The translations under genes and the position numbers were made by a program. Under the pieces are notes generated by a model, which saw only the letters and a list, made by a program, of their open reading frames with translations, was not told where the DNA came from and ran no database searches. From positions 1 through 43,264 of the forward strand of contig CALUWA010000018.1 of assembly GCA_944324365.1 (NCBI GenBank): a stretch of DNA of 43,264 nucleotides, in the 5' to 3' direction. Below, piece after piece: positions 1 through 43,264 of this stretch (positions within the stretch are counted from its first letter, which is position 1; each line of letters opens with the position of its first letter). Source of the stretch: Candidatus Gastranaerophilales bacterium (lineage in GTDB: Bacteria; Cyanobacteriota; Vampirovibrionia; Gastranaerophilales; Gastranaerophilaceae).

Positions 1-1586
1 ATCTTCATAACTACAGGGTAGCCGATTGAGTTGCCGAGTTCAACAACTTCTTCTTCGTTAGTTGCCAAACCGTATTTGCAAGCTCTGATACCGTAAGCCT
101 GAAGTACGTCAATTGATTCAAGAGTTGTCAACTGAGCACGGCCTTCTGATAATGATTTTTTAATAATGCTTTCAACTTTAGCTCTGTCTACGTCGTAGCA
201 AGGAATTTTACCTTCCGGTCTTTCCATCCAGAGTCTTTGCTGGTTCAATCTGTTCAAACCGTCAGCAGCCTGTTCAGCATACATAAAGAACGGCATATTA
301 ACATCCATATCGGAAAGTTTTGAGAAGAATTCATTCTTCGTCATAAATACACCGATGATAGGTTTTTGAGGATTTTTAGCTTTAATTTCCATCAAAGCCT
401 GAGCAACATCAATATCTTTCAAACCTAAGAACGGAAGATAGATTGTAATAATCATATCAACGTTTTCATCAGCTATTACTGTTTCCAAAGTTTGTTTGTA
501 GTGTTCGATAGGAGCTGATGCAATCATATCGATAGGGTTCTTAACAGAAGCTGCAGCAGGCAGGAAGCTTCTCAATTTAGCTTTTGTTTCGTCGGAAATT
601 TTAGCCATCTGCATGCCGTATTCACAAACAGCATCAGTTGCCATAATACCAGGGCCGCCTGAGTTTGTAATAATCGCTACTCTGTCGCCTTTCGGAATAG
701 GGCAGTTAGCAAATACTTTTGCAGTTTCGAAAAGGTTTTGAAGAGAAAATTCTCTTATAACACCTGATTGCTGTAACAAAGCCGCAGCAGCCTTATCTGC
801 ACCGGCCAATGAACCTGTGTGAGATGAAGCAGCAGAAGCACCTGCAGCAGATCTTCCTGATTTCAAAGCCAAAATAGGTTTTTTCTTAGTTACTCTTGAA
901 GCTAATTTTCTGAAATTAGACGGATTTTGAATTGATTCCATATAAAGAAGAATTTGTTCAACATCATCGTCATTTTCCCAGTATTCAATAGCTGTTTCTG
1001 CGTTAACATCAGCCTGATTACCGATTGAAATGAACTGAGCAAAACCAAGGTTCAAGTCTTTCAAAATATTCAAAATACCGCCGCCCAATGCGCCTGATTG
1101 AGAAACGAAACCGATATTTCCGCGTTCCGGAAGAGATTCAGCAAAGCAGCCGTCCATTCTGATATCAGGGTGAGTATTTACAACGCCCAAGCAGTTTGGT
1201 CCAACACATCTCATGCCGTATTCTTTAATTTTTTCAACAAGTTGTTTTTCCAGTTCTGCACCTTCAGCACCTGTTTCTTTGAAACCGGCCGTAATGATAC
1301 AAATACCTTTTATTCCTTTTTCGTGGCATTGGTCAATTGTTGACAATACAAATTTTGCATTAACAACGATTATTGCCAAATCAACTTCTCCGGGAACTTC
1401 TGTTATTGAAGTATATGCCTGCAAACCTTGGATTTCTCCGCCTTTCGGGTTTACAGGGTATATTTTCCCGTTGAATTTGTATTCCTGTAATCTCTTCATA
1501 ATATCAGAACCAATTGTGTGCTCTTTTGTAGAAGCACCAATAACTGCAATTGATTTTGGTTTCATGATTTTGTCTAAAATGTTCAT
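1..1586 (-). CDS. ADP-forming acetate/acyl-CoA ligase, C-terminus cut by window edge
   Basis: Partial gene: 528 codons are visible from the ATG at 1586 and the frame stays open to base 1. The protein starts MNILDKIMKPKSIAVIGAST, the CoA-binding Rossmann entry of the NDP-forming acyl-CoA synthetase family (acetyl-CoA synthetase ADP-forming / Pat-like). Further on come VGPNCLG, FVSQSGALG and the SSHTGSLAG segment carrying the histidine that is phosphorylated in this family, then TNSGGPGI. The visible end (ACKYGLATNEEEV...GYPVVMK) is the start of an ATP-grasp domain, so the alpha and beta parts are fused in one chain. The family interconverts acyl-CoA, ADP and phosphate with free acid, CoA and ATP, and often makes ATP in fermentation. 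The start is supported by AGGA six bases upstream. It is probably the last visible gene of an operon, 21 bp after the preceding small gene. Substrate cannot be told from sequence. Confidence 0.88.
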   Translation of the reverse strand, partial: MNILDKIMKPKSIAVIGASTKEHTIGSDIMKRLQEYKFNGKIYPVNPKGGEIQGLQAYTSITEVPGEVDLAIIVVNAKFVLSTIDQCHEKGIKGICIITAGFKETGAEGAELEKQLVEKIKEYGMRCVGPNCLGVVNTHPDIRMDGCFAESLPERGNIGFVSQSGALGGGILNILKDLNLGFAQFISIGNQADVNAETAIEYWENDDDVEQILLYMESIQNPSNFRKLASRVTKKKPILALKSGRSAAGASAASSHTGSLAGADKAAAALLQQSGVIREFSLQNLFETAKVFANCPIPKGDRVAIITNSGGPGIMATDAVCEYGMQMAKISDETKAKLRSFLPAAASVKNPIDMIASAPIEHYKQTLETVIADENVDMIITIYLPFLGLKDIDVAQALMEIKAKNPQKPIIGVFMTKNEFFSKLSDMDVNMPFFMYAEQAADGLNRLNQQRLWMERPEGKIPCYDVDRAKVESIIKKSLSEGRAQLTTLESIDVLQAYGIRACKYGLATNEEEVVELGNSIGYPVVMK

Positions 1587-1607
1587 GACTTGTCCTTTCT
1601 TTTTTAG

Positions 1608-2045
1608 TTATATATCTTCCTCGTCCTGAAAAAATTTTACAAATCTATTCATAATATTATCACAAAATTTCAAAAGTTTTTGTTTTAAAGTTAACTTTTG
1701 TGCAGGTTTTTCCGTAAAAACTTTATTGTTTTGCAAATCTTTCTTATCAGCCTTTGCAATAGCACGCTTTGCGCCGCTGACTATTGCATCCGGATGGAAT
1801 ACAGTCTTTATTGATTCAAAAAAATGCTCGACTCTATCAGGCTTGCCAGCCTGAGCTGAAATATAAACCGGAGGTTCTTCAAACAAACTGCCTTTTGATA
1901 CGTAAAGGTTATATTTGCTGTTTTTCACAATTCTCATATTATTAACTTGTCCGGCGATTTTTTTCAGCGCATTCCTGTTCTTTTTGCCGATTACAATCAT
2001 TTGTCCGCCAAAACTTGTATTATTATGAGTATTGTTTATATACAT
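1608..2045 (-). CDS. uncharacterised 145-residue protein with N-terminal SFGG motif
   Basis: Not recognised. A basic, probably soluble 145-residue protein without signal peptide or membrane helix. The first ~15 residues are Asn/Thr-rich and end in SFGG (residues 11-14); a probable beta-alpha region follows (NLYVSKG, VYISAQAG), then a Lys-rich stretch and an amphipathic, aromatic C-terminal helix ending MNRFVKFFQDEEDI. The upstream neighbour has the same length and plan (short polar N-terminus, [ST]FxG, mixed middle, amphipathic RF..LF C-terminus), so the two may be distant paralogues, although plain identity is low. It sits in a same-strand run 40 bp after that neighbour and 21 bp before the acyl-CoA ligase. 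The ATG at 2045 has AGAGAGAT upstream as a weak Shine-Dalgarno site. No function is proposed. Confidence 0.72.
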   Translation of the reverse strand: MYINNTHNNTSFGGQMIVIGKKNRNALKKIAGQVNNMRIVKNSKYNLYVSKGSLFEEPPVYISAQAGKPDRVEHFFESIKTVFHPDAIVSGAKRAIAKADKKDLQNNKVFTEKPAQKLTLKQKLLKFCDNIMNRFVKFFQDEEDI

Positions 2046-2085
2046 ATTTATCTCTCTTAACTTATTTATATTTCAACTTTTCAGT

Positions 2086-2523
2086 TTAAAAATCTTTGTT
2101 GTTCTTTCCGAACAATGAAGCAAATCTTTTGGCAAAATTGTTTGCAGGTTTGCTCATAAATCTGTTTTCATATTCACGGACAGCAGTTTTCGCCGCCGCA
2201 ATATATATATCCACGGCTGAGTAATTAAACAGTTTGTAATCATCTCCCATATCTGCAGCTCCGGGAATTAAAACTTCCATCCTGGGACTGTCTTTTACAC
2301 CGATATCTGTTGCTTTTTTAGCAATCACGCTTACTGTCTGGGTTTTGTTATTCTGTGTAATTAACAAATCAAACGGTTTATCCTGTATCATAGCTTGCAT
2401 TGCATCATAAGCTTTTCTTACATTTCTTGCAGGATTATAGCTTAAATTTCCCGGGAAAATGTTAATTTTACCCTGAAAAGTTTGTCTTGAATTTTGTGAC
2501 ATAGAGATGTTTTGTACTTGCAT
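2086..2523 (-). CDS. uncharacterised 145-residue protein with N-terminal TFQG motif
   Basis: Not recognised. I start it at the ATG at 2523 (MQVQNISMSQ...) because AAAGGAAG lies just upstream; an in-frame TTG 15 bp earlier would use up that ribosome-binding site. The N-terminus is polar and carries TFQG at residues 15-18, followed by a region with beta character (FDLLITQNN, VSVIAKK), an acidic PGAADMGDDYK segment and a C-terminal amphipathic helix (AKRFASLFG). There is no signal peptide or membrane helix. It lies 16 bp after the radical SAM gene and 40 bp before the other 145-residue gene, which points to co-transcription. The translation start context (TTGAAAGG...ATTATG) closely resembles that of the 24436-24951 gene, which carries the same type of N-terminal motif. 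Function unknown. Confidence 0.72.
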   Translation of the reverse strand: MQVQNISMSQNSRQTFQGKINIFPGNLSYNPARNVRKAYDAMQAMIQDKPFDLLITQNNKTQTVSVIAKKATDIGVKDSPRMEVLIPGAADMGDDYKLFNYSAVDIYIAAAKTAVREYENRFMSKPANNFAKRFASLFGKNNKDF

Positions 2524-2539
2524 AATTCTTCCTTTCAAA

Positions 2540-3181
2540 TTAGTATCCGTTTACAATCCACTCTCTCACTCTAAACTTTGCACCCAACTCAGATGCAATT
2601 TCTTCACAAGCCCCAAGATTAAGATGCCGCCCTTTATATCCTTCAACGACACTTGCAACAACATCTATTCCTTCATCCGAACAAGCCTTTATAAAGCTTT
2701 TTACCTCATCATATGCATGAGGAAATTTTGGATTTGAAAGTTCATTGTATTCTTCTTCAGTCGGAGCATTTAGACTTACGCTGAATTCATCCACAAGCCC
2801 ATTCAACTCCGGAACTACGTTACGTTTATATACAAAATTTGCATGCCCGTTAGTGTTTACCCTGATTTTTGCATGAGGGTAAATTTCTTTTATATGTTTT
2901 GCGGTTGCTTTTAGCTCTTCAAGCTTCAACATAGGCTCCCCATATCCGCAAAATACGACTTCAATATGGCCGTTGTCAACAAGTGAATGATGGAATTTAC
3001 AGCAGTTATCAAACTGTGCGAAAACATCCTCTATAGGATAGTTTTCACTATCCAGCCACAACCTCTGGCCGCAAACATCATCCTTGTCTTTTCTAAGACA
3101 AAAGGCGCAATCATTTGTACATCTGTTAGTTAAATTTATATAAATTTTTCCGTCTAGTAAATAAACTAAAGTATTTGCCAT
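2540..3181 (-). CDS. radical SAM protein, TatD-associated type
   Basis: 213 residues. A radical SAM cluster motif CTNDCAFC (Cys21, Cys25, Cys28) lies right at the N-terminus after GKIYINLTNR, followed by the GYGEPML loop that contacts SAM and a VNTNGHA strand. Short length, the LYINLTNRC opening and the following CLRKDKDD..G..LWL segment match what I know of the TatD-linked radical SAM family (TIGR04038 type), whose substrate is unknown. No tatD gene is visible here. The enzyme would cleave S-adenosylmethionine with a [4Fe-4S] cluster; there is no extra C-terminal cluster (SPASM) domain. AAAGG is placed before the ATG at 3181. It is divergent from ruvC and is the first gene of the minus-strand run through the two 145-residue proteins to the acyl-CoA ligase. 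Confidence 0.85.
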   Translation of the reverse strand: MANTLVYLLDGKIYINLTNRCTNDCAFCLRKDKDDVCGQRLWLDSENYPIEDVFAQFDNCCKFHHSLVDNGHIEVVFCGYGEPMLKLEELKATAKHIKEIYPHAKIRVNTNGHANFVYKRNVVPELNGLVDEFSVSLNAPTEEEYNELSNPKFPHAYDEVKSFIKACSDEGIDVVASVVEGYKGRHLNLGACEEIASELGAKFRVREWIVNGY

Positions 3182-24435: not shown

Positions 24436-24951
24436 TTACAAATTTTCAACTTTTTCCTCGGCACCTGTTGCCTGAAGATTTTTAGCCGCACCAATCAGTT
24501 TTTGCATTTCCGGATCTGCCGTAACTTTTTTCATTTCCTTAATCATGCTAAAATACCCGCCTGTCAGTATACCGCCAATACCAAAGACTATTGCGCCAAG
24601 AGTTCCCCAGATTGAACGTTTTACTACGGAACCTTTTGTAAAGATTGCGATTGCAGCCGGAATAACCGCGCCTATTGCACCGCCAATCAGGGCACTTGCT
24701 CTATTATTCTTTTGCCAGCTGCCGGCATACTTTGCAACGAGTTTTTCCCGTTCTTCGGGATTTTTCATATTATCCTGAATTGCAGAATATTCATTATATG
24801 CTTTTTCAAACTTATCCGCATTTTCTACCGGAACGGTATAAGTAAATTTTTTCTTTATATCTTCATCAACAACTTCGTAAGTTTGCTTTCCGTTAACAGG
24901 AGTACCGATTTTATTTAAAGCACCTAAAAATGACAAATTTCCAACTGGCAT
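24436..24951 (-). CDS. small membrane protein with N-terminal SFLG motif
   Basis: Not recognised. 171 residues from the ATG at 24951 (MPVGNLSFLGAL...), preferred over an in-frame TTG 15 bp upstream because AAAGG then serves as ribosome-binding site. SFLG (7-10) is the [ST]FxG motif shared with three other unknown proteins here. The middle is charged (EDIKKKFTYTVPVENADKFEKAYNEY, shown in parts); two hydrophobic Gly/Ala-rich helices follow (ALIGGAIGAVIPAAIAIF and GTLGAIVFGIGGILTGGYF), forming a hairpin of the glycine-zipper kind. The C-terminus is a charged helix. It probably sits in the inner membrane with both ends in the cytoplasm. The upstream same-strand neighbour is the TonB-like gene, 94 bp away. 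Confidence 0.72.
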   Translation of the reverse strand: MPVGNLSFLGALNKIGTPVNGKQTYEVVDEDIKKKFTYTVPVENADKFEKAYNEYSAIQDNMKNPEEREKLVAKYAGSWQKNNRASALIGGAIGAVIPAAIAIFTKGSVVKRSIWGTLGAIVFGIGGILTGGYFSMIKEMKKVTADPEMQKLIGAAKNLQATGAEEKVENL

Positions 24952-30471: not shown

Positions 30472-32895
30472 TTATTTTTTAATCATATCTCTTAGTTTGC
30501 TGCTGTTTTGGAAATCTACCATTTTTGCTGCGGCATCGTCCCGAGTTTCCCCATTTTTAGGAGCTTCTTCCTTTGCCTTAACGTCGTAAGATTTTATAGA
30601 ACGTTTACCGGTCAGACGCTGCATAAAGTTGTAATATCCCTTGAGCAAGCCAGTTGCATTATCCTGTTTTTCTTCCAACTCAAGAAGTTCTTCTCTTGTA
30701 TGGGCACCTACAGGAACTCCGACTGATACCCTGGTTAACCATTCGCCTAATGTCGTATTAGTCAGCGTAATCCAGCTCATACCGAGCAGAGATTTGTTGT
30801 ATTGGCTTCTGAATGTGCTGTTGAACAGGTCAATTAACAAAGTCTGATAGAACAATCTTGAACCTTCCTGTACAAATCTTTCTTTGAATTTGGTCTGCGC
30901 ACCTTCAACATCGTTACCGTTTGATTTGAGCATAACCATATTGTAGTTATCTGTCATCAGGAACCACAATGTTGCAGCGGTTGCAGCGGTTTTTGCAAGG
31001 TTTGAAAGTTCTGCGTTAGAAACATTTGACATAGTATCCGCGTTAAATGCTTTCAAAAGGTTATCCGATACGTAATCATGGAACTGTTTCGGATTAAAAT
31101 CTTTTTTCAGTGCTTGTTTGCCGATGTTGTCAACACTTTTTGCAAGCGCTTCGATATCACCAACACGGCATAAGAATGTCTTTTCTATATCAGTCAAACT
31201 GTCAGGAGTTTTCTTTTTCAATGCTGAAACGAAACCTTCAATATTTTTTACAAAATCTTCATTCAGTTTGAGTTCTTTTTGCATATTTTGAGCAATTGTT
31301 TCGAGGGTTTTCTTATCGCTTATAGGCATTTTGACCAGTTTCGGCTGTTTAGTGAAAGCCTTAATACCCTTATCAACAAGTCTGTAAGGAAGCGTAACCG
31401 TATTCCAGGCAAACTTGAATGGTGCGATAAAGAAGTTAACAAGCGGTTTAACTTTTTTATCCCTTGCACCGAGGCTTATTGTGCCGTCAGCGTTTCTCGC
31501 ATAACCCGCAACCCTGATATAATCATCTGCCAAATCTGTTGCGTGAGGAGTTCCTTCTGCAGCTTCCTGCGCAGCTGAAAATCCTGTTTCTTTCAATCTG
31601 GCAACAATCTTATCGAAAGTTTCGCCGTCTATCTTGTACTCAGGAGTTGAGGTTAATTTGTTATATAACTTTTTGAAAGGTTTAAATGAAGCGTTAATAG
31701 CATTATCTACAACACTGATTTTTCTAAGTCCTTTCAATGCAAAGCCGGCAGCAATTATGCCGACAGAAGCTTTGCCGACAGTATCAAGCGACAATAACGG
31801 TTTCTGCTGTTTTTTATTATCGGTTTTTTGAACACTGTCATTAGCCTTGAATGATGTATCAGGCTTGATATCTTTTTCCGGAGCGTTATTTCTTGCATTT
31901 TCTTCTCTTGCTTCTTCCGGAGTCAGGCGTTTAATATGCTTGCCGTTTGCAAGACGTGAGAAAGATTCCGTAAACAATGCGGTTAAACCTGTTGTAAGCA
32001 TAATTCCGAGGTTAGAATTATTCATAAGTTTTTGCAATGCACCGAATGTAATCAAGGTAATATAAGCATTAATACCTATACGCGTAATTTCTTGGCTGAA
32101 CCTGACTTTCTTTTCGTGTTCGGCTTTGTCTTTATCGTCATCCATCATTCTGGACAAGTTGTAAGCATCGTTTGCAAGAAATATTGCAGGCGGAATACCC
32201 GAAACAATTCTGTTTAAGGAACGTTCGTGTTTTGTGTCGTAATTTCCTGTTTTCGGGTCAAACATTTTCATCTTCTGCTGGAACATCGCAGACTGAATTT
32301 CTTCGGCAGACTTACCTTCTTTCAAAAGTTTTGCCCTTGTTTCCGCCAAACCTCTAAGTGCACTAATCTGGGCTTCAATTTTTGATTCAGCACGAAGCTT
32401 TTTCAAATTTTTGGAATTGTGCATCTTTTGCGCCCAGGCTTCAAACGGTTTTATTTTCCCGATTAAATCTATTGTACCGTTTAAGATATCCGTCGGAAGG
32501 TTTCTTAAAACAAGTCCATCTCCTATTAAATGAGGGATGGACTTTTTGTGGAAAACAATTTCTTCCGTTTTCGGATCAACATGAAACATTTTCTTTGCCA
32601 AAGGGATTTGAGAAGCGGCCACATGATTATATAAATCTTCTCCCATATGCCCGAGGTTTTGTCTGAGAAAATCGAGAAACTCGCCTTTTAAATATTTATT
32701 CCCCTTGTTGGCTTGTACATATAAAAAAGAACCTTTAAATGATAAATCGTTTTGACTATTATTTAAAGGTCCCTTATTATTTAAACTATTAAATTGAGAT
32801 ACTGATCCCGAATGAGGAGATACCTCTTTTGGGGATAGTAACCCCGTATCTTTTCGTTTCGGTGTTATAAGATATTTGGTCTTACTTACTAACAT
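30472..32895 (-). CDS. large uncharacterised membrane protein, 807 residues, SFKG motif
   Basis: Not recognised. A ~50-residue Ser/Asn-rich disordered N-terminus ends with LSFKG (51-55), the [ST]FxG motif shared with three other unknown proteins; a looser TSFKA recurs near residue 350. Several moderately hydrophobic segments (AYITLITFGALQKLM, LGIMLTTGLTALFTESF, ASVGIIAAGFALKGL, FKFAWNTVTLPYRL, TAATAATLWFLMTDNY) suggest a multi-pass membrane or pore-like protein, separated by long charged helical regions. There is no cleavable signal peptide. Length and style are those of lineage-specific proteins of gut Gastranaerophilales. It is a single-gene unit with its own terminator, divergent from the 606-residue gene (184 bp between starts). 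The function is unknown. Confidence 0.72.
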   Translation of the reverse strand: MLVSKTKYLITPKRKDTGLLSPKEVSPHSGSVSQFNSLNNKGPLNNSQNDLSFKGSFLYVQANKGNKYLKGEFLDFLRQNLGHMGEDLYNHVAASQIPLAKKMFHVDPKTEEIVFHKKSIPHLIGDGLVLRNLPTDILNGTIDLIGKIKPFEAWAQKMHNSKNLKKLRAESKIEAQISALRGLAETRAKLLKEGKSAEEIQSAMFQQKMKMFDPKTGNYDTKHERSLNRIVSGIPPAIFLANDAYNLSRMMDDDKDKAEHEKKVRFSQEITRIGINAYITLITFGALQKLMNNSNLGIMLTTGLTALFTESFSRLANGKHIKRLTPEEAREENARNNAPEKDIKPDTSFKANDSVQKTDNKKQQKPLLSLDTVGKASVGIIAAGFALKGLRKISVVDNAINASFKPFKKLYNKLTSTPEYKIDGETFDKIVARLKETGFSAAQEAAEGTPHATDLADDYIRVAGYARNADGTISLGARDKKVKPLVNFFIAPFKFAWNTVTLPYRLVDKGIKAFTKQPKLVKMPISDKKTLETIAQNMQKELKLNEDFVKNIEGFVSALKKKTPDSLTDIEKTFLCRVGDIEALAKSVDNIGKQALKKDFNPKQFHDYVSDNLLKAFNADTMSNVSNAELSNLAKTAATAATLWFLMTDNYNMVMLKSNGNDVEGAQTKFKERFVQEGSRLFYQTLLIDLFNSTFRSQYNKSLLGMSWITLTNTTLGEWLTRVSVGVPVGAHTREELLELEEKQDNATGLLKGYYNFMQRLTGKRSIKSYDVKAKEEAPKNGETRDDAAAKMVDFQNSSKLRDMIKK

Positions 32896-33079: not shown

Positions 33080-34900
33080 ATGGGATTAGCGGCCTCACAA
33101 GCGAAATTACTAAGCATAACAGCGAGATTGTCTGACAACGAATTACGTTCACAGACACTTACCGCTGCAAAAATGTCGCTTGCAAACCAGACAACTGCCG
33201 CAAGCAGAAAATATATTGATGCATTGGATTCCACAAACCTTATTTATTCGACCTACGACTTGGACGGAAATAAAACTTATGTAGATTTAACAGGATACCA
33301 ATTATCACAATATGCTCCGCTGAAAAACCAGTACGGGCTGGTAAATACAAACGGACAGATATTGGTATCTGAAACAGATGCTGCAAACTACGAAGCAAGC
33401 AGTAACATAAACGAATTTTTGGAGAAATACGGTGTAAACGCCATTGATACAGGCGAAGTTCAAACGATAGAAAACCCTGAATACCAGGATGCATACGACA
33501 AATGGGCAGAAGAGTATGAAGAATGGCTGAAAAGTAAACCTGATGCCTCAAACGATATTTACTGGACTGTAACAGAAGGCACAGATTCTGAATTGTATAA
33601 TATATTTAAAGAGGCATCTGCATCTTGTTTTAGAAACGCTACTGGTGGTGATTCCGGGTGTTACCGACACGTACTAGCGCATATGTTAGACGTAGATCCA
33701 GATGTATCTATAGGAGATAATGGAGAATATGGTGCCAGTGGTAAAAAATTTGATACTACACTTGGAGGCAGCATTACTATAAACTCTAGTATGATTTGGG
33801 GTTCAGCTATTCATGGTGATACTGTGAATGGAATGAATGCATCTGAAGCTATGGTTCCGGTATCCGATGCCGTTCGTGACGGCTGGAACGGTCAAACCGT
33901 TATGGCAGCAGAACACACATATCCGGGGAATGATGAACAATGGCTATGCGAACAGGGAAACCCACCGAAAAGAACCCTCCAGGATGAATCAAAAAAACTC
34001 ATAAGCGATTATTACCTGCAGGAAGCACTGGCAAACGGAACGGTTGCCTCTGAAGCAGAACAACTCATAAGCAACTACAAATACACTTATGACAATGAAG
34101 GCAACATTGTAGGAACAGAGCTTAAGACTTTACGCGAAAAATGTATTGATTTATACTATATATTAGCACATAGCAATATGGGATTTAACTATAATACAAC
34201 CATGCTGGATGTACTTTATACATTCCAGGATGATATGAGTGTTGCATTTACCGAAAGAATTTTTGACGAAACAAAATACAATACGGATTACGGCGAATGG
34301 CTTGCAGATAAACCTGATCCGCTGACAGTTCCGCCTACAATAGATAAAAAAATATATGAATACGACGACAAGGATAAAGCGCAGTGGTATGTAAACCTCT
34401 GGCACCGTATGAATGGTCCTAGTGATGAAAAAGACGGCACAATAACAGATACTACAATAACCACAACAGTAGATGAAAACGGTGAATATGTTATTAATAA
34501 AACCGAAACCACATCATTGAGATACGATGTTTTGGAAGACGGACTTATGAACAGTGCCGAATGGCTTCAATATGCACTCGAAAGCGGTTCCGTAACTCTT
34601 GAACGTGTAAACTATGAAAACCCTACAGAAATGGGTACTGGTTTAGAAGATGGAGCTTGGACTTCGATAATTTATACTAATGCAACAGATATTTCATCAG
34701 AAGCGGATGATGCCGCAGTTGCAAAAGCAGAAGCAGAATACGAAGCAACAACAAAAGATATTGAAGCAAAAGATAAACAGTATGACAGCATGCTGAAACT
34801 TCTTGATACAGAACACAGTGCGCTCCAAACTGAATACGATTCAGTTAAATCAGTAATTTCTAAAAATACCGAAAGAACTTTAAAAATGTATTCTGCATAA
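33080..34900 (+). CDS. uncharacterised 606-residue protein with helical ends and mosaic centre
   Basis: Not recognised. The N-terminal ~50 residues form a helix (MGLAASQAKLLSITARLSDN...), and the last ~65 residues are a coiled coil (EATTKDIEAKDKQYDSMLKL...LKMYSA). Between them are a Tyr/Asn/Asp-rich region, a Cys-containing part SCFRNATGGDSGCYRHVLAH (from about residue 190) and a D/T-rich stretch near 460. No signal peptide or membrane helix. Conserved helical ends around a variable middle are the plan of flagellin-, hook- and needle-type axial proteins, but I see no flagellar neighbour and treat this only as an analogy. Bases 33600-33850 and about 34625-34685 use codons such as GGT, ACT, GCT and AGT far more than the rest of the gene, suggesting acquired segments. 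AGG stands before the ATG. Confidence 0.72.
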   Translation: MGLAASQAKLLSITARLSDNELRSQTLTAAKMSLANQTTAASRKYIDALDSTNLIYSTYDLDGNKTYVDLTGYQLSQYAPLKNQYGLVNTNGQILVSETDAANYEASSNINEFLEKYGVNAIDTGEVQTIENPEYQDAYDKWAEEYEEWLKSKPDASNDIYWTVTEGTDSELYNIFKEASASCFRNATGGDSGCYRHVLAHMLDVDPDVSIGDNGEYGASGKKFDTTLGGSITINSSMIWGSAIHGDTVNGMNASEAMVPVSDAVRDGWNGQTVMAAEHTYPGNDEQWLCEQGNPPKRTLQDESKKLISDYYLQEALANGTVASEAEQLISNYKYTYDNEGNIVGTELKTLREKCIDLYYILAHSNMGFNYNTTMLDVLYTFQDDMSVAFTERIFDETKYNTDYGEWLADKPDPLTVPPTIDKKIYEYDDKDKAQWYVNLWHRMNGPSDEKDGTITDTTITTTVDENGEYVINKTETTSLRYDVLEDGLMNSAEWLQYALESGSVTLERVNYENPTEMGTGLEDGAWTSIIYTNATDISSEADDAAVAKAEAEYEATTKDIEAKDKQYDSMLKLLDTEHSALQTEYDSVKSVISKNTERTLKMYSA

Positions 34901-41890: not shown

Positions 41891-43264
41891 CTATAGATAA
41901 ATGATAAGAGCTAAATTATAATTTGGCGTAGGAACTTCGCCCCTGGCGGGTTTTACGACATTTAGTGTATCTTTAACAGTTTGTAACACAATTTTGTCTA
42001 CCTGCTCGGAACCGCTTGATTTAGCTATCTTTGCGTTTGTAACATTTCCGTCTTTTGTAAGATTTATATCCACTTTGACCTGATTTGAATAAATATATTC
42101 ATTGGTAAGCAGCAAATCGCTGGAAAGTGTCAATTTGATACTTTTTCCGGCAGTCTGCAGGTAATCGTTTATATTACTGCTGTATGAAAGATAATCAGGC
42201 ACCTGCCATGACAATTTTTTCAAAGTAATAGTTTTGCTGCTGTTGATAGGTTTCGGTACGGCAGGCTTTGTAACTGCAGGTTTTTGTACAGGTTTTGCCG
42301 CTGCAGCAGGTTTTTGTTCTGCAGGTTTCGCAGCCGGTTTATCTTCTTTAACATCCTGAGGAATAACCGGTGCTGACGGAGAAATATCTGCCGCATCAGA
42401 CGGTATATTCGGAGTATCCAATTCACCTGTATTTGCAAGAATATCAGAGTTGTCTGCTTCAGGTGTTGCAATAGCTTCATTTTCAGGTGTTGTCTGAATA
42501 AGAGTTTCAGCATCAATACTGTTTTTACTCTTCATCAAAAATCCTACAACGGAACCGGCTATTATAATCGCCGCAAGTATCGCAAATACAGGCATTAGTT
42601 TCCCGATTTTCCGCTCCGGTCTGAAATCATAATTTTCTTCATTTTCAGCCTGCTGCTCATCAGATTCAATATCCAAAGAATCTTCTAATGACTCCAATTC
42701 AGGCACTGCTGAATCATCATATAAAACCTGGAGTTTTTCATCTTCTGCTTCCGTTGATTCCTCGCATATTTCAATATCAGAATTTTCTGCTGCGGAAATC
42801 CCTTCATCAACAGGTATATTCATATTCTCTGCCTCTGCCGAAAGTTCAGGAACATCTGCCGCAGGCTGATCTTTTGATGGCTCAAGTTCGCCTAGACTAA
42901 TAGAATCCAGACCGTCCAAAATAGCGGAAGCATCAACAGGCTGCGCCGGCTGAGCGGAAGCTTCTGGGGAACTGCTACCAGACTCTAAAATAGAAACATC
43001 TTCTACAAAATCATCTGATGTTAGCTCGTCCGGATGTTCCATAGCAGGTGACACATTTGTTGCATCAGGCATTTCAGCCACAAAATCATCTGAAGTTAAT
43101 TCATCCGCATGCTCCATAGCAGGTGACACATTTGTTGCATCAGGCATTTCGGCCACAAAATCGTCTGAAGTTAATTCATCCGCATGCTCCATAGCAGGTG
43201 ACACATTTGTTGCATCAGGCATTTCAGCCACAAAATCATCTGAAGTTAATTCATCCGCATGCTC
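41891..43264 (-). CDS. TonB-like membrane protein with tandem-repeat N-terminus, 5' end outside window
   Basis: Partial: 457 codons are visible and the frame is open at the right edge. The visible order is 25-residue tandem repeats (AEMPDATNVSPAMEHADELT and five more), a long acidic Glu/Ser-rich region, one membrane helix (LMPVFAILAAIIIAGSVVGF), a spacer, a Pro/Lys/Ala-rich stretch (KPAEQKPAAAAKPVQKPAV) and a TonB-like C-terminal domain (VKVDINLTKDGNVTNAKIAK, SSGSEQVDKIVLQTVKDTL). The Pro/Lys region and the C-terminal domain should be periplasmic; the repeats and acidic region then lie in the cytoplasm, which is unusual for TonB. It is upstream of the sigma-like gene (34 bp). It could be an energy transducer or a trans-envelope signalling protein. 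An internal ATG at 43231 falls inside a repeat and is not the start. Confidence 0.8.
   Translation of the reverse strand, partial: EHADELTSDDFVAEMPDATNVSPAMEHADELTSDDFVAEMPDATNVSPAMEHADELTSDDFVAEMPDATNVSPAMEHPDELTSDDFVEDVSILESGSSSPEASAQPAQPVDASAILDGLDSISLGELEPSKDQPAADVPELSAEAENMNIPVDEGISAAENSDIEICEESTEAEDEKLQVLYDDSAVPELESLEDSLDIESDEQQAENEENYDFRPERKIGKLMPVFAILAAIIIAGSVVGFLMKSKNSIDAETLIQTTPENEAIATPEADNSDILANTGELDTPNIPSDAADISPSAPVIPQDVKEDKPAAKPAEQKPAAAAKPVQKPAVTKPAVPKPINSSKTITLKKLSWQVPDYLSYSSNINDYLQTAGKSIKLTLSSDLLLTNEYIYSNQVKVDINLTKDGNVTNAKIAKSSGSEQVDKIVLQTVKDTLNVVKPARGEVPTPNYNLALIIYL
43004..43264 (-). repeat. 75-bp in-frame tandem repeats
   Basis: Three full units (43004-43078, 43079-43153, 43154-43228) and a partial one (43229-43264) continuing past the edge. 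The two right-hand full units differ by only a few bases; the left unit has more changes (including Ala to Pro in the EHADEL segment). This indicates recent expansion by slippage or unequal crossing-over. Confidence 0.9.

Follow-up and report, generated by a model that had tools for sequence, protein, structure and literature searches.

A bipartite N-terminal tag on diverse proteins of the Gastranaerophilales and its possible role as a sorting signal for a flagellar-type export apparatus

The stretch of DNA analyzed here (the window, 43,264 nucleotides) lies on contig C18 of a Candidatus Gastranaerophilales genome of 2.05 Mb (G000). A first-pass annotation of the window had drawn attention to four proteins with the motif [ST]FxG near the N-terminus, which it interpreted as a lineage-specific targeting, processing or docking signal. 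We confirmed all four sites at the positions given there, all on the minus strand, and found no match above the curated cut-off for any of the four proteins in Pfam or NCBIfam. The relevant features are:

1608..2045, minus strand: tagged 145-aa protein, no assigned function (no Pfam match)
2004..2045, minus strand: N-terminal tag of gene 1608-2045, MYINNTHNNTSFGG (tag score 18.9)
2004-2015, minus strand: SFGG core of the tag of gene 1608-2045
2086..2523, minus strand: tagged 145-aa protein with a predicted small alpha/beta domain (structure model), no assigned function
2470..2523, minus strand: N-terminal tag of gene 2086-2523, MQVQNISMSQNSRQTFQG (M1, F16 and G18 invariant in 9 sequences)
2470-2481, minus strand: TFQG core of the tag of gene 2086-2523
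24922..24933, minus strand: SFLG of gene 24436-24951, coincidental and outside the tag class
30472..32895, minus strand: tagged 807-aa protein, no assigned function (homologues across the order)
32731..32742, minus strand: SFKG core of the long (55-residue) tag of gene 30472-32895 (homologue conservation)

The motif is conserved among the relatives of three of these genes but not of the fourth. Orthologues of gene 2086-2523 were found in nine further genomes of the order (31-49% identity), alongside a paralogue with 61% identity, and F-x-G is retained in all nine orthologues and paralogues that could be read. For gene 1608-2045 the motif is kept as SFSG in a paralogue (L011:4152) and as NFTG in the orthologue from genome G017 (L029:5032). 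Homologues of gene 30472-32895 occur in 65 of the 97 genomes and in none of the same-class outgroups, and 24 of the 26 having an intact N-terminus carry [STA]FxG. In contrast, we rejected gene 24436-24951 as a carrier and regard its SFLG as a chance occurrence, because just one copy, 99% identical, shares it and the seven more divergent orthologues lack it. The start context TTGAAAGG...ATTATG is indeed shared by two of the genes, as had been reported, one of them a true carrier and the other the coincidental case; we consider it an ordinary A/G-rich ribosome-binding region rather than a special element.

Genes 1608-2045 and 2086-2523 belong to a four-gene cassette (acyl-CoA synthetase-like, 1608-2045, 2086-2523 and radical SAM), which occupies positions 1-3181 of the window and is duplicated in the same genome at L011:3014-6769; in the G017 version (L029) gene 1608-2045 is present and gene 2086-2523 does not adjoin it. 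In the AlphaFold2 model of the gene 2086-2523 product, pLDDT is below 50 at residues 7-12 and the first strand is at residues 20-22. A resemblance of this model to the ribosome hibernation factors HPF/YfiA was not significant (best E 0.01, TM below 0.5).

Our counts are based on 31% of G000 (643 kb) and on stretches of 18 relatives. Among 572 ORFs of the G000 sample, 20 carried [ST]FxG at residues 3-63 versus 10.8 in shuffled sequences (8 of 1000 shuffles reached 20), and for the other members of the order the corresponding values were 23 versus 13.7 (9 of 1000), with 4 versus 3.0 in the same-class outgroup G056. The excess of the literal motif in G000 and in the order is real, weak but reproducible, and approximately twofold. 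Model-free enrichment of letter pairs placed F.G among the top pairs, yet it was not outstanding, and the position of the motif Phe ranged from residue 5 to about 53. The motif as defined at first is too narrow; the true signal is wider and bipartite.

That signal is a disordered N-terminal tag of two parts situated directly before the folded domain. Its consensus is approximately M-[KQR]-[IV]-x-x-[IV], then an Asn/Gln/Ser-rich, acid-poor linker, then [NST]-F-x-[G/A/S], with a spacing between the parts of 3 to about 50 residues. It is kept at the domain junction in families whose members are only 28-61% identical. The clearest example outside the window is an amidohydrolase (L016:7285-8424), whose homologues in many genera (28-48% identity) have differing short starts, such as MKLNRINGINFKGKIIDSH, MQVCNINTNHRVKQNFNGKIIDSH and MNIRKINSATFGGKIIDSH, that end in F-x-G before the first barrel strand, IIDxHxH. 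Twenty of the 27 homologues with a readable start have F-x-[GAS], three have the Phe with another residue at +2 and four are untagged, two of the latter belonging to family f7 and beginning at the barrel itself (VKIVKKYIDMHVH). Residue F16 is nearly invariant in the amidohydrolase, and in its AlphaFold2 model the barrel begins at residue 19 and the first 16 residues are disordered, with pLDDT values below 50. In both structure models made, of this protein and of gene 2086-2523, the tag is polar and non-helical. Inspected by eye, the tags of the listed carriers lack the hydrophobic core of 7 or more residues that, with a cleavage site, typifies Sec or Tat signal peptides. We ruled out a cause at the level of codons or mRNA, because F and G of the core persist although different codons encode them (TTT/TTC, GGN).

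To count carriers we used a tag score trained on 25 N-termini from three families (the amidohydrolase, 1608-2045 and 2086-2523). In the G000 sample, 15 of 544 ORFs scored at least 11, whereas composition-preserving shuffles gave 0.18, and ten carriers remained against the same expectation when the training families were removed (Poisson 8e-15). Neither of the two refuting outcomes named with the first annotation, a lack of enrichment over shuffles or of conservation among orthologues, was observed, and the claim of a lineage-specific N-terminal signal is supported. A second set of 80 loci gave 7 versus 0.25 at a score of 11, although these loci come from the same genomic region and so represent few distinct genes. 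Scaling up from the 31% sample, we estimate about 55-70 carriers per genome. At a score of at least 7, there were 41 carriers among 1704 ORFs of the order and one among 305 ORFs of four same-class outgroups. A search at the DNA level with a pattern for the tag, which works but yields few matches per genome, gave ratios of real to reversed-control matches of 106:19 for family f1 of the order, 11:0 for f6 and 8:0 for f7, versus 18:4 for f2-f5 and 9:12 for the same-class outgroups. Within the order the tag recurs in three or more families; none was detected in the sister orders sampled.

Carriers also share an upstream element, CTAGCAAAAAATTTTTTTnnGGGGTTT, usually 35-75 bases 5' of the ATG. Under leave-one-out scoring, a site of at least 12 bits was present for 21 of 39 carriers and for 23 of 916 other genes (Fisher 1e-20), and several of the top-scoring among those 23 are themselves carriers that were overlooked by the score or had a miscalled start. 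In the second set of loci, too, the element precedes roughly half of the carriers; upstream of the window ORFs there is no site above 6 bits. Genes picked by the promoter are enriched at residues 2-15 for N (1.85x), Q (1.74x) and S (1.52x), depleted for D (0.37x) and E (0.34x), and have N-termini that are also P-rich. Their odds of having [NST]F.[GA] are raised fourfold (p 1e-5), in a test that is not fully independent since the matrix was built from carriers. The element resembles the sigma-28 (FliA) consensus, TAAA-N15-GCCGATAA, only loosely. A sigma factor of the FliA/WhiG family is encoded, in a genome that lacks flagellin, at L023:8155-8982, within a few kb of rod genes, and its own gene has a promoter-like site upstream (11.9 bits).

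The carriers had been described as unknown proteins, and this holds for many of them, which have no family. Others are GH13 members (with matches to GlgX, pullulanase or amylase models), GH77, the amidohydrolase, a protein with a GalM match, two CheR-like methyltransferases, two AAA+ ATPases, a SKI2-type DEAD helicase and a protein with a weak radical SAM match. Carriers cluster, for example at L018, L033 and L174. Only seven of the 41 have a predicted transmembrane segment, a lower proportion than among non-carriers (31%), and we accordingly rejected the tag as a mark of membrane proteins.

Two of the carrier families have an untagged counterpart in the same genome. An untagged SKI2-type helicase (L064:15817-18102, start MYEFPFELDDFQKDACNYITDGK) has a counterpart in nearly all genomes of the class; a divergent second copy is present in a subset of families f1 and f6, and in G000 this copy has a tag of 48 residues. 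Likewise, there is an untagged GH77 (L073:12629-14491, start MVCTLEKNATKTIEKALK) and a divergent GH77 copy whose start resembles a tag (MLVGKINSYSYRPHFTRR for G000, MRVLGIDNRIAFQRR for G017); both starts are weaker cases, as they are without G, A or S at +2. The presence of the tag on the extra copy of an enzyme suggests that this copy works in a different place from the untagged one, and we propose that the tag separates accessory enzyme copies from untagged, cytosolic housekeeping paralogues.

Non-flagellated Gastranaerophilales keep a subset of flagellar genes that is unable to form a functional flagellum (PMC4040986). We found FliP in all 80 members of the order searched and in 92 of the 97 genomes overall, and the FlhA family likewise in 92 of 97, while flagellin was found in 48 of the 97 and in none of the 13 members of the genus of G000. 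One cluster contains FliE, FliF, an unnamed gene, FliH and FlhA. In addition, G000 encodes a FliA/WhiG sigma factor, FlgC (above the cut-off), FlgB-like and FlgEFG-family rod genes, and FliJ-like and FliK-like genes (below the cut-off). No full-length FlhA was found in three members of the order (G009, G065 and G078), and the copy in G005 is partial. Both G078 and G009 have tags; the missing FlhA is weakened as a refutation of export by the FliP that is present in both.

Computation thus yielded a conserved tag with predicted disorder, a shared promoter, paralogue pairs and a retained apparatus, and we consider it probable that the tag alters the location of the proteins that carry it. Of the functions first suggested for the motif, targeting or docking fits these data, and nothing was found in support of processing. 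Our preferred reading, which as a whole we hold tentatively, is that the tag may be an N-terminal sorting signal for export by a flagellar-type type III apparatus. The peptide is predicted to be unfolded, is poor in acidic residues and rich in Asn, Gln and Ser, starts hydrophobically (M-x-[IV]-x-x-[IV]) and meets the folded domain at its [NST]-F-x-[GAS] core; in this role it would mark some 55-70 co-regulated proteins in each genome. The route would be the type III apparatus (FliE, FliF, FliH, FlhA, FliP, FliJ-like and rod proteins), kept even where there is no flagellin. More speculatively still, the flagellar export machine of the flagellin-less gut Gastranaerophilales might have turned into a general secretion system for more than 50 cargo proteins, mostly under one type of promoter and with a readable N-terminal code.

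Several results count against export. In families f2-f5 of the order the apparatus is present and the tag, by the DNA pattern, is weak or absent, and no promoter site turned up upstream of the genes for the rod, FliJ/FliK or FliP. The apparatus is a poor guide to the tag, as FliP and FlhA occur in several sister orders for which no tag was detected. The one sampled genome without the apparatus (G056) had no score of at least 5, and the sister orders that have it were likewise without a convincing tag. The rod proteins did not reach the tag score, and the core of the tag is not the known FxxxPhi gate motif. Finally, the SAM-dependent methyltransferases and ATP-driven carriers would be inactive outside the cell unless they were delivered into another one.

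The main and close rival, for which we see a considerable though lesser than even chance, is that the tag docks proteins inside the cell by binding a scaffold, a granule, a membrane-associated complex or a protein compartment, and so gathers enzymes, for example around glycogen. Many carriers depend on ATP or SAM or have glycogen as their substrate, the scarcity of transmembrane segments among carriers agrees with such a role, and the weak HPF-like fold modeled for gene 2086-2523 would suit a cytosolic one; however, a CheR-like methyltransferase, a helicase, an amylase and an amidohydrolase have no common pathway. It is improbable that the tag, while real and regulated, serves another secretion route, such as type IV or a novel one. 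The link between apparatus and tag is circumstantial, and secretion systems have reportedly been discussed for the related Vampirovibrio, but type IV signals are usually C-terminal. We judge a degron, or an N-terminal processing signal for a protease or adaptor, to be similarly unlikely: bacterial N-terminal degrons of similar length exist (the ClpX N-motifs), and the tag is short, exposed, N-terminal and at a domain edge, but no protease partner was found, the conserved F and G mark the junction with the domain and not the terminus itself, and divergent tagged paralogues of housekeeping enzymes would be left unexplained. Least likely is that the tag has no function in the protein and results from translation starts being AT-rich and unstructured, together with chance matches to a short motif. 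In favor of this, the codons for Asn, Lys and Ile are rich in A and T, the literal motif exceeds shuffles no more than twofold and one of the four window cases is due to chance; against it, the shuffles that preserve composition fall far short of the ten carriers observed, F and G stay constant across varying codons, and the core is retained in orthologues whose linker differs.

Returning to type III export, early flagellar substrates such as Salmonella FlgD have a two-part N-terminal signal (PMC8983047). Like type III signals, the tag lies at the extreme N-terminus, is unstructured in the models, is polar and acid-poor, combines a hydrophobic start with a Phe-centred element and marks a co-regulated set in genomes that encode the apparatus. 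It differs in that its core is F-x-[GAS] and not the FxxxPhi gate motif, which was not found (the residue at F+4 was a mixture of K, L, N, S and P among the carriers outside the training set and not consistently hydrophobic), and in its variable spacing and its presence on dozens of diverse enzymes, for which export is only proposed here. The chlamydial glycogen enzymes GlgX, MalQ and GlgP bear N-terminal type III signals (PMC4829429). This is similar to our GH77 and GH13 members, which are also glycogen/starch enzymes with an N-terminal signal, but here the tagged GH77 is a divergent second copy beside an untagged one. We know of no sequence motif common to the chlamydial signals. Salmonella SPI-2 effectors have a conserved N-terminal motif, WEK(I/M)xxFF, which resembles the tag as a lineage-specific N-terminal sequence on otherwise differing proteins; it is of another sequence, much longer and belongs to a pathogen's effector set. 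The encapsulation or docking peptides of bacterial compartments are also short peptides on folded enzymes but are usually amphipathic helices or C-terminal, whereas in our two models the tag is a non-helical, polar N-terminus.

We found no published description of such a tag in the open-licence papers searched. If our reading is right, a large part of the unknown proteins of this common, mostly uncultured gut lineage could be recognized from their first 60 residues and their promoter, the shared fate of the tagged proteins would become testable, and there would be a purpose for the flagellar genes noted in non-flagellated members (PMC4040986). Even without export, a sorting tag that can be read from sequence and divides enzymes into tagged and untagged copies would be unusual in bacteria.

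A protein of about 490 aa that is widespread in the order (L015:12710-14188 and L029:10724-12202) corresponds in its C-terminal two thirds to the C-terminal domain of FlhA and has no membrane part. Its gene adjoins that of the tagged GH77, and this FlhA-C paralogue could be a candidate receptor for the tag. Within the window, positions 33080-34900 encode a 606-aa protein with no family match and the start MGLAASQAKLLSITARL, which has diverged from the tagged 807-aa gene. Starts like it are found at L049:10522 and, with a looser likeness, at L319:1086, upstream of the FliE-FlhA cluster. Three repeats of about 25 residues (AEMPDATNVSPAMEHADELTSDDFV), almost identical to one another, open a long acidic protein encoded at 41891-43231.
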